This document shows, piece by piece, positions 30,493 to 32,912 of a stretch of DNA of 64,000 nucleotides. The stretch lies in assembly GCA_018970085.1 (NCBI GenBank), contig JAGWXD010000002.1, forward strand, positions 62,001 to 126,000. The letters are read 5' to 3'. Both the position numbers and the translations under genes were made by a program. The notes below the pieces were generated by a model that ran no database searches, was not told where the DNA came from, and saw nothing but the letters and a program-made list of their open reading frames with translations. The first letter of the stretch is position 1. Each line of letters begins with the position of its first letter. The DNA comes from Cyanobacteria bacterium REEB459 (lineage in GTDB: Bacteria > Cyanobacteriota > Cyanobacteriia > Phormidesmidales > Phormidesmidaceae).

Positions 30493-30894
30493 TTATGGAT
30501 TAGGGCTACCATAGAGCTCTGGCACTGGGGCAGCTGAGGGTAAAGCTGCCTGAGCATCGTGGGTTTGAATATAGCCAGTGTAGTAAGCTCCCGATTCGAT
30601 TTGAATAGAACCAGCCACCACATCGCCCTCAATGCGAGCCGTAGGGCCCAGGCTGATCTTGTCGACCACCGATATTTTGTCAGCCTTGAGAGTGCCCTGC
30701 ACGATTAGGTTTTGGGCTTTGACCTCGGCTCCTTCCACCACACCGGTAGCAGAAATCTCCAGATCGCCTTCTACCTCAACTGAGCCGTAGACCATACCGT
30801 CTACCCGCACCATACCTTTTGCCAGGAGTGATCCGGAAAGCTCTGTTTTTTGACCTAAATAGGTCAATAGGGGGGTTGATTTGGGTCGAAACAT
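30493..30894 (-). CDS. Bactofilin (polymer-forming cytoskeletal protein)
   Basis: A 133-residue protein with a central right-handed beta-helix of short repeats (LLAKGMVRVDGMVYGSVEVEG, then VEGAEVKAQNLIVQGTLKADKI, ARIEGDVVAGSIQIESGAYYTG) flanked by short flexible ends, which is the bactofilin plan. Such proteins self-assemble into filaments on the inner side of the membrane, with roles in cell shape, motility or localisation. It is 69 bases from cysE on the same strand. Its 5' side faces a 500-base intergenic region with an AAAAACC/GGTTTTT inverted repeat (30949-30969). Confidence 0.88.
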   Translation of the reverse strand: MFRPKSTPLLTYLGQKTELSGSLLAKGMVRVDGMVYGSVEVEGDLEISATGVVEGAEVKAQNLIVQGTLKADKISVVDKISLGPTARIEGDVVAGSIQIESGAYYTGYIQTHDAQAALPSAAPVPELYGSPNP

Positions 30895-31050
30895 AGATCA
30901 CCAGGATGACGACAGGGACACAAACTGCTGGTGCCGTTGGCTAGGCCGAAAAACCAATGTAAGGTTTTTGGGCCCGGGGTGGGCGCCTTTTAGATCTATC
31001 CTTGAATCATGCCAGACCAAGCCCTATATCGGTCAGCCCCAGGCGGCCAC

Positions 31051-31070
31051 GGCGATAGTAGGCGATAGTA
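31051..31070. repeat. Perfect tandem 10-mer
   Basis: GGCGATAGTA appears twice in direct succession in the region upstream of the HCP gene. Confidence 0.8.
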
Positions 31071-31107
31071 ACTGAGGGCTTATAACTTGAGTCACTGGCG
31101 GCTGACT

Positions 31108-31133
31108 ACAGAAGTTGCAAACAGAAGTTGCAA
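31108..31133. repeat. Perfect tandem 13-mer
   Basis: ACAGAAGTTGCAA occurs twice in direct succession, 38 bases after the 10-mer duplication and about 270 bases before the HCP start. Confidence 0.8.
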
Positions 31134-31398
31134 AAACTTTTAATAGCATACCCCATCAGCAAATCCTAAGAAACCTTGAAGATTTTCTATCTCCTTTAAA
31201 AAATCAGGGATCAATATAAAAGGACAAAAAACACTCTGAATATTAGAGTTTTAGATTATTGAGTCGATTTTTGAGATCTATAAGGCTATCACTAATCCCT
31301 TCTCTAGGGTAAGGGAGGAAGACCTTTTAGCTCAGGAAATTCGCCACTGCCAGAGCTGCCTCTGTAGTGTATTACCCCTTCCCGCGAGGACTCTTGCC

Positions 31399-31860
31399 AT
31401 GGTTACTGTGACTGCCTGTACTTCCCTTCAAGCTGACCTGGCTGCCTTTCAAGCTAGCGATGTTGATGCTCGCTTAAACATCATCTGGCAGGCTCATCAG
31501 GGGGTGGGGCAGGCCCTGGCAGCGAGTTTGCCCGTAGCCCTTTTTTCCCAGTCTGCCCAACTGCTATTCCGGCAGTTCAGTCAGATCCGCCAAGATGATC
31601 AGCGGGCGGTTTTACGAGATATTCTAGCCGGGGCCGACACCCGCTTTACCCAGGCCTATAGAAGGCTTAATATCAATACAAAGTTGGTCTTTTGGCACCG
31701 GCTCTTGGCAAGTCAACCATTACATTTCTGGTGTGGCTGCGGTGGTTTAAACCCTGACTACATAGCTCTGCTGATCCGTTTGCAGCGGATGGATCTACAG
31801 GAACAACTGAATTTTTTGCGGCAGGCCCTGGCTTCAGCGGCGCCGCGATTGCCTGGTTGA
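31399..31860 (+). CDS. Helical carotenoid protein (OCP N-terminal domain homologue)
   Basis: A 153-aa, all-helical protein that aligns by eye with the carotenoid-binding domain of orange carotenoid protein (OCP): IIWQAHQGVGQAL to the OCP first core helix, LAGADTRFTQAYRRLNINTKLVFWHRLL to the ADTPICRTY ... FWYQL region, and the C-terminal LNFLRQALASA. W30 and W99 match the OCP ring-contact tryptophans (W41 and W110, from memory), while the matching tyrosines (Y44, Y111) are His (H33, H100). Stand-alone members (HCPs) quench singlet oxygen or act in photoprotection. There is no OCP C-terminal domain. It stands apart from its neighbours and follows an AT-rich leader. Carotenoid binding is inferred, not shown. 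Confidence 0.78.
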   Translation: MVTVTACTSLQADLAAFQASDVDARLNIIWQAHQGVGQALAASLPVALFSQSAQLLFRQFSQIRQDDQRAVLRDILAGADTRFTQAYRRLNINTKLVFWHRLLASQPLHFWCGCGGLNPDYIALLIRLQRMDLQEQLNFLRQALASAAPRLPG

Positions 31861-31928
31861 CCACTTCGGGTATTGGCGGCTGAGTTTAATTACAATTCAG
31901 GGATCTACCTTGTCTATATGTCTAGTTT

Positions 31929-32912
31929 ATGTGCCTAATTTATGTCGATCACCTGACCAAGCGCTATCAAGTGGCGACCAAGGCCAGTGGTCTGGGGGGT
32001 ACCGTTAAACACTTCCTCAATCGCCAGTATCGTAATATCGAGGCGGTACGGAACGTTTCTTTTCAGATTAATAAGGGGGAAGTGGTGGGTTTTCTAGGAC
32101 CCAATGGAGCTGGCAAAACCACCACTTTGAAAATGTTGACCGGTCTGGTTCATCCTTCTGCTGGTATTGCCAGGGTAGGTGAGCACATTCCCTTTCAACG
32201 GCAGACCGCCTTTCTCCAAACCATCACCCTGGTGATGGGGCAAAAGCAACAACTCTTATGGGATTTACCCGCCCTTGACTCCCTCCGGATTAATGCCGCT
32301 ATCTACGGGTTATCCGACCAGGTTTTTCGCCAGCGGGTAGGGGAATTAACAGAGATGTTAGCGTTGCAGGGAAAGCTAACCCAACCGGTGCGTAAACTCT
32401 CTTTGGGAGAGCGGATGAAGGCGGAAATGATGGCGGCTCTGCTGCATCGTCCCCAGGTACTATTTCTAGATGAACCCACCCTGGGTTTAGACGTAAACGC
32501 CCAGGTGGCGGTCCGTAATTTTTTACGAGACTATAACCAGCGCTACCAGGCGACAATTTTGCTCACCAGTCATTACATGGCAGACATTACGGCCCTTTGT
32601 CAGCGGGTTTTGCTGATCCACCAGGGGCAGCTGATCTACGATGGCAATCTAGAGCAACTGCTGGGTCGGTTTGCTCCCTATCGGCAGGTGACTGTGGAAC
32701 TAACCAGCATAGCTCAGCCCCAGGCGTTAGCTTCCTACGGCGAATTAGAGACCCTAGAGGGGTGTACGGCTAGTTTAATTGTGCGGCGTGACCAGCTCAC
32801 CCAGACCGTTAGTCGCCTGTTGGCAGATTTTGACATCCAGGATTTAACCGTCACCGATCCACCGGTCGAGGAAGTTATTGGTCGGGTCTTTCAAGCCGGA
32901 AGTGTGGATTAA
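31929..32912 (+). CDS. ABC transporter ATP-binding protein, no permease adjacent
   Basis: A 327-residue ATPase with Walker [14 protein letters not shown] (57-64 core), the signature [17 protein letters not shown], Walker [13 protein letters not shown] and TSHYMADI as the switch region. The extra insert before Walker A ([19 protein letters not shown]) and the C-terminal extension place it with the ABC-2 exporter ATPases, which normally precede one or two permeases. Here the next gene is aroC on the other strand, so the partner must be elsewhere. The stop overlaps the aroC stop through a shared TTAA (32909-32912). The cargo is unknown. Confidence 0.85.

Follow-up and report, generated by a model that had tools for sequence, protein, structure and literature searches.

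The founding paper on the clades of helical carotenoid proteins (HCPs) is that of Melnicki in 2016. For the neighbouring OCP family, the part of PMC9616832 available to us describes Y44 as stacking on the beta2 ring of the carotenoid together with W41 and W110, places Y111, along with G114, among the residues nearest to Y44, and reports that a Y44S substitution blocks photoconversion. A charge gradient set up by R155 and, at the opposite end, by E34 and D35 gives canthaxanthin its dipole, according to the available text of PMC10997198, and HCP4 and HCP5 are distinguished from OCP1 by an Arg at position 60 and a Phe at position 147 (PMC12059629, in the sections available). As for how HCPs acquire their pigment, the accessible portion of PMC6123778 reports that membranes do not give up carotenoid to HCP1 or HCP4 in vitro, and its conclusion is that HCPs cannot be loaded without CTDH; the gene for Anabaena HCP4 adjoins a CTDH gene in the same account. 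Euhalothece, whose genome is reported to lack crtO and crtW, has an OCP and an HCP5 that bind zeaxanthin and beta-carotene and that lower reactive oxygen in E. coli, together with a CTDH that does not bind zeaxanthin (PMC6971039, as far as its available text goes). That same text cautions that the absence of crtO and crtW does not prove the absence of ketocarotenoids.

Here, we analysed a protein of this kind encoded in a 64,000-nucleotide stretch of DNA, the whole of which is referred to as the window, from Cyanobacteria bacterium REEB459. The locus comprises the following features:

30493-30894, minus strand: bactofilin, the divergent neighbour of the HCP gene (Pfam PF04519)
31168-31220, plus strand: bipartite element AAGAAACCTTGAAGA-N24-GGGATCAATATAAA, identically spaced in same-genus loci
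31399-31860, plus strand: stand-alone helical carotenoid protein (HCP, Carot_N) of 153 aa (open reading frame, Pfam, AlphaFold2 fold match, trees)
31929-32912, plus strand: ABC transporter ATPase, 68 bp downstream of the HCP gene (Pfam PF00005)

The HCP open reading frame starts with ATG, and residues 9-143 of its 153-residue product match Pfam Carot_N (PF09150) at 65 bits, against a cut-off of 25. This was the only Pfam match in the protein, with neither a second domain nor an NTF2 domain detected, and no fitting NCBIfam model was found. Having a Carot_N domain without an NTF2-like C-terminal domain, the protein belongs to the HCP family and, at 153 aa, lacks the fused domain that defines OCP, as a preliminary description of this DNA had anticipated in calling it a divergent stand-alone HCP without a regulatory C-terminal domain. 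An AlphaFold2 model built from 25 aligned sequences (mean pLDDT 81, pTM 0.77) is predicted to adopt the all-helical fold of the OCP N-terminal domain. Its closest solved structure was Anabaena HCP4 with canthaxanthin (PDB 8qx5; Z 19.6, rmsd 2.6, 149 aligned), followed by OCPs, HCP2 and 5fcy; all HCP and OCP structures matched with Z of at least 15.9, versus 4.2 for the next, unrelated row. We take 5fcy, the Anabaena 'Red Carotenoid Protein', to be HCP1.

Comparison with these proteins revealed both shared and distinct features. HCP4 (8qx5) is the top PDB match in sequence as well as in fold, likewise consists of a single Carot_N domain, and shares with the window HCP the tryptophan pair and the equivalent of R155; unlike it, HCP4 belongs to another clade and has Tyr at both OCP tyrosine sites, Asp35, Arg60 and Phe147. 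Fremyella HCP2 (6mcj) is also a stand-alone HCP without Tyr at OCP position 111, where it has Leu, but it falls in a separate clade, keeps Tyr at position 44 and has Leu in place of R155. The OCP N-terminal domain (4xb4, 7sc9) shares the fold and the W41/W110 pair, whereas the window HCP has no C-terminal domain to go with it and carries His for Y44 and Y111 and Ala for D35.

The numbering used for these sites was checked on the Synechocystis OCP sequence (PDB 7sc9) and by alignment, which equates W41, Y44, W110, Y111 and R155 of OCP with W30, H33, W99, H100 and R141 of the window HCP. Thus, both tunnel tryptophans (W41 and W110 in OCP) are present, as W30 and W99, and the preliminary description was right in placing H33 and H100 where OCP has tyrosines. 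Its further description of both as changes at ring-contact sites holds for H33 but not for H100. Residues were counted in 131 Carot_N rows, a selection rather than a census that consists of relatives and the best phylum matches and includes two duplicates. At position 33, Tyr occurs in 123 rows, Ala in five, and His, Cys and Phe in one each, the single His being that of the window HCP. At position 100, by contrast, Tyr (94 rows) is joined by His in 27, Leu in eight, and Phe and Asn in one each. These 27 rows are the window HCP, its 24 same-genus orthologs, a fragment from a further genome of the genus (G021) and one distant protein, L138; His is therefore standard among the full-length same-genus orthologs (24 of 24). 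These counts mark H100 as characteristic of the clade and H33 as having changed on the branch of the window HCP itself, so the idea that both histidines are private oddities was rejected for H100, while H33 remains private. In addition, H100 is better described as second-shell, because Y44, W41 and W110 are the residues put at the ring in the available part of PMC9616832, with Y111 next to Y44. The distant protein, encoded in G052 next to another HCP, has its His in an FWHHL context and apparently arrived at it independently of the window clade.

At the remaining sites, Trp is found at position 99 in all 131 rows, and the W30, W99 and R141 positions are kept in the window HCP and 24/24 same-genus orthologs; the R155 equivalent is kept across the genus but in only one of five family outgroup rows. 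The D35 position is Cys in 24/24 same-genus orthologs and Ala in the window HCP, which has Asp in place of E34, and Phe and Leu at OCP sites 60 and 147, respectively; Phe at 147 is also present in HCP1 and HCP2. Ala or Cys takes the place of Y44 in four relatives from the same family (L059, L061, L062 and L078). Two of these, L061 (from G033) and L062 (from G026), combine Ala at Y44 with Tyr or Asn at W41, and judging from these residues it is doubtful that they bind carotenoid. By homology with Y44 and Y111 of OCP, as described in the text available from PMC9616832, H33 and H100 would lie next to one another. An effect of H33 on carotenoid tuning or quenching, as had been proposed, is plausible by analogy, since Y44S is reported in that text to block photoconversion in OCP; without a C-terminal domain, however, the window HCP has no photocycle of the OCP kind that could be disrupted. 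In the literature searched, mostly at the level of listings, neither OCP 44 nor OCP 111 was described as changing naturally from Tyr to His.

To place the protein among HCPs, as the preliminary description had advised, we used two trees. In a 127-row tree, which omits the G021 fragment (L144), L081 and L146 (duplicates of L062 and L061) and L041 (almost the same sequence as L040), the window HCP and 23 same-genus rows formed one group (100/96), and 27 rows with L059, L061 and L062 formed another (100/96). In a 101-row tree, for which a further 30 OCP, HCP4 and clade rows were thinned out, positions 33 and 100 were masked and four PDB references were added, the window's 25-row clade was recovered at 97/85, with 5fcy (HCP1), 6mcj (HCP2), 8qx5 (HCP4) and 7sc9 (OCP1) all outside it. 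The window HCP forms a long branch in both trees (end branch 0.79-0.92), which makes its own placement less sure. The clade is thus separate from the HCP1, HCP2, HCP4 and OCP references, the only named ones compared; as HCP3 and HCP5-9 were not represented, it may be one of the nine named HCP clades or lie outside them. All of its rows come from one GTDB family, a confinement that is provisional because only the best loci were extracted from the phylum search (386 genomes, 134 with a match to the clade profile). A motif of the [L/I]-F-S-Q type between helices 2 and 3 is present in 32 rows out of 135, a count that takes in the fragment and two duplicates; all of these rows are members of the clade, one other member of which (L034) is without it.

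An ortholog of the HCP was found in 25/25 same-genus genomes searched, full-length in 24 and as the fragment in G021. OCP-length Carot_N frames (at least 300 aa) were detected in 18 of these 25; the seven genomes without one include G006, which has broken-up pieces, and G021, which is 87% complete. In two genomes, G008 and G011, loci L175 (1134-1613) and L176 (1414-1893) retain only OCP residues 160-319 (86% identity), adjoining FRP; they carry an in-frame stop and no N-terminal domain could be detected at either, which suggests that OCP is broken in both genomes while the HCP is kept. A tblastn search of plasmids with the HCP gave no match, and a contig-scan match on a Porphyromonas contig (L002; 49 residues at 37%) was judged spurious and left out.

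Six neighbours of the HCP gene were scanned (hexapeptide transferase, bactofilin, ABC ATPase, chorismate synthase, M23 peptidase and a beta-lactamase-fold protein), and they include no photoprotection gene, in agreement with what had been noted for the locus. When 13 neighbourhoods of relatives, each 12-16 kb long, were compared, the divergent bactofilin upstream of the HCP gene was present in the window and 13/13, and the ABC ATPase lay directly downstream in the window and 11/13; the downstream set of ABC ATPase, chorismate synthase, M23 peptidase and beta-lactamase-fold genes likewise recurs in 11/13. The ABC ATPase is a possible operon partner. Between bactofilin and hexapeptide transferase, 11/13 neighbourhoods also contain a gene for a protein of about 160-170 aa without a Pfam match (9337-9849 in L148), which is missing in the window. 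Horizontal transfer of the HCP gene was rejected because gene order (bactofilin-HCP-ABC ATPase-chorismate synthase) is conserved.

The clade is under purifying selection, with a median dN/dS of 0.11 (118 of 276 pairs, those with dS between 0.05 and 1.5); the printed pairs that involve the window HCP are saturated or undefined. Mean identity to relatives is 47% for the window HCP versus 71% for its counterpart in L148 (G009), as compared with 85% versus 93% for chorismate synthase and 78% versus 87% for the ABC ATPase. Expressed as the ratio of window-to-relatives over L148-to-relatives divergence, the HCP stands at 1.8 and the six flanking genes at 1.4 to 3.9. By these sequence comparisons, the HCP gene evolves fast within a lineage that is itself divergent, and is not specially decaying.

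Upstream of the HCP gene, we identified the pattern AAGAAACTTGGAAGA-N24-GGGATCAATATAAA, from which the window copy at 31168-31220 differs by two substitutions. It was found in the window and 24/24 same-genus loci, with a spacer of 24 nt in every one although 15-30 nt were allowed, and, in the 14 loci measured, at 122-234 nt from the HCP start and 86-345 nt from the divergent gene. The only other match of the scan (L101) had eight substitutions and different spacing. The looser form of the pattern occurs once in the window against 0.01 expected by chance. The second half extends to other genera of the family: L059 and L061 carry it unchanged and L062 and L078 nearly so, and in these loci an AAGAAA is visible by eye at an offset that is identical or differs by one base. 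The element was not found in L058, nor in the 600 bases surrounding the G021 fragment. A search of 98 other OCP/HCP loci, together 225 kb, did not turn up the exact 14-mer; this set includes three clade members (L081, L144 and L146), and many of its loci have flanks of only 150 bases, so that the upstream regions of many other HCPs fall outside this search.

Present evidence argues against the element being a small RNA. The two Rfam matches listed for it in the window fall short of gathering (21.7 where 54 is required, and 16 where 48 is), and none reached gathering in 12 relatives' loci; there was no covariation (0/6 pairs changed on both sides), the consensus fold had an energy of -2.06 kcal/mol, and a CCCYG/CRGGG stem spotted by eye does not hold in the window. 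Judged by its conservation pattern, it is probably a DNA element, such as a promoter or operator. The HCP gene is a likelier target than bactofilin, because L059 has the second half upstream of its HCP gene and no bactofilin nearby (none was found by tblastn within the 1.5 kb fetched). The only sigma-70-like site in 30880-31960 overlaps the element on the minus strand, facing bactofilin, where 1.0 site is expected by shuffling; a role for bactofilin, or as a shared divergent promoter, is possible.

Turning to the partners of HCPs and the pigment pathway, the genome that contains the window (G000; 3.24 Mb in 102 contigs, 99.84% complete, 3.16% contamination) retains phycobilisome genes: eight matches of phycobiliprotein type are full, and a 1081-aa frame that resembles ApcE contains two partial matches. 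A Carot_N scan of the whole assembly returned the window HCP alone, so that no OCP was detected, and FRP was not found either. In a genus search of 24 genomes with G000 among them, FRP was present in 20 and missing from G000, G015, G017 and G021, and the NTF2 domain (PF02136), which marks the OCP C-terminal domain or CTDH, was matched in 21, the exceptions being G000, G017 and G021. As relatives' single-domain frames of CTDH type obtain only low scores with PF02136 (E 1e-4 to 3e-7), a divergent CTDH could have been missed in the window's genome. Thus, in contrast to the Anabaena HCP4 gene with its adjoining CTDH, this genome has no CTDH that we could find.

The best CrtO score in the window's genome was 104 bits against a cut-off of 1000, and none of its five FA_desaturase hits was CrtW-like, an absence that is less certain than that of CrtO, being judged from the FA_desaturase hits. 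The genome does have CrtR (beta-carotene hydroxylase), at 532 bits with a cut-off of 475, and CrtD, at 762 with a cut-off of 550. Besides these two, the same genome encodes a 551-aa CrtI-family protein (L162, 1453-3105; 537 bits versus 238). Since only 13 of 25 genomes in the genus search pass the CrtO cut-off and some of those without CrtO keep an OCP, members of the genus may use CrtW. Euhalothece offers a parallel, set beside our case by description rather than by sequence: its genome too is reported without crtO and crtW, but its HCP5 gene adjoins CTDH and an OCP is present (PMC6971039, in the text available).

Taken together, the window protein is most likely a soluble carotenoid-binding antioxidant, rather than a photoswitch or a strong phycobilisome quencher. 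In the full explanation we favour, to which we would give an even chance of being right as a whole, the HCP would be a core protein of the genus, passed down vertically, of which the window carries this lineage's version. It would be a soluble, all-helical protein that encloses one carotenoid between W30 and W99 and quenches reactive oxygen, be it singlet oxygen or another species. OCP, FRP and CTDH, the partners it would normally have, would presumably have been lost from this genome, and its ligand, taken up without CTDH, would be beta-carotene or zeaxanthin, because no ketolase was found. H100 would have been inherited with the clade and H33 would have arisen in the window lineage, where OCP geometry would put the two side by side near the beta-ring. 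We infer carotenoid binding from the Trp pair, the Arg at the R155 position and the fold; the ligand's identity, the antioxidant role and any effect of the histidines are likewise inferred. An OCP-type photoswitch is not possible, because the second domain is absent. Counting against this explanation are the conclusion, in the available part of PMC6123778, that loading requires the CTDH that this genome does not seem to have and, at the sequence level, His at a ring contact, the replacement of D35 by Ala and the retention of R155 in just one of the five outgroup rows.

Some of these same observations could instead mean that the HCP no longer binds carotenoid and has acquired a different function, structural or regulatory, connected with the cell-envelope genes around it (bactofilin, M23 peptidase and ABC ATPase); the tunnel might then house some other ligand. 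Y44 is replaced in the window HCP and in the four family relatives with Ala or Cys, two of which have also lost W41, neither CTDH nor ketolase was found in the window's genome, and bactofilin is a constant neighbour. Nevertheless, we regard this as unlikely, given that W30, W99 and R141 are kept in the window HCP and all 24 orthologs and that the nearest fold is a canthaxanthin-bound HCP4. It is more improbable that the HCP replaces the missing OCP as a light-independent phycobilisome quencher like HCP4 or HCP5. The phycobilisome genes, the kept R155 equivalent and the Asp at E34 are consistent with such a role; however, D35, one of the charges that raise the carotenoid transition dipole in the account available from PMC10997198, is Ala here and Cys in the orthologs, sites 60 and 147 are Phe and Leu where HCP4 and HCP5 have Arg and Phe (PMC12059629, in part), OCP is still present in 18/25 relatives that carry this HCP, and zeaxanthin-bound OCP is reported to be non-quenching in the consulted part of PMC6971039. 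Because neither D35 nor the HCP4/HCP5-type residues at 60 and 147 are kept, strong phycobilisome quenching appears less likely on sequence grounds.

We give little credence to the HCP being a carotenoid carrier, as proposed for HCP1. It does consist of a single stand-alone domain, and HCP1 can hand carotenoid to CTDH in vitro (PMC6123778, in its available portion), but no recipient, be it OCP, CTDH or another HCP, was detected in the window's genome. The long end branch and the private H33 might also be expected of a relic decaying after the loss of its partners; we consider this very unlikely indeed, as the frame is intact and in synteny, it has diverged to a degree commensurate with the flanking genes, and the upstream element is retained. 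A more elaborate version of the antioxidant explanation is highly speculative: that the clade is an OCP- and CTDH-independent reactive-oxygen quencher with a dedicated promoter element, the core Carot_N protein of its genus, and that the window lineage adapted to a ketocarotenoid-free cell through an adjacent H33/H100 pair at the ring pocket, which might take up hydroxylated xanthophylls directly or make binding pH- or metal-dependent.

What makes this locus notable is that, in a genome where OCP, FRP, CTDH and ketolase all went undetected, the one Carot_N protein found belongs to a conserved HCP lineage that has an upstream element of its own, and that this protein carries a private Tyr-to-His change at the best-known ring-contact site. 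The presence of an ortholog in every same-genus genome searched, including the seven without an OCP-length frame, suggests that the role of the HCP is separate from OCP-driven phycobilisome quenching, and the upstream element provides a handle on its regulation. If the HCP binds carotenoid, this genome would constitute a natural experiment, with a single HCP, no detectable OCP, FRP or CTDH and probably no ketocarotenoids either, and would offer a direct test of whether HCPs need CTDH loading and ketolated ligands.
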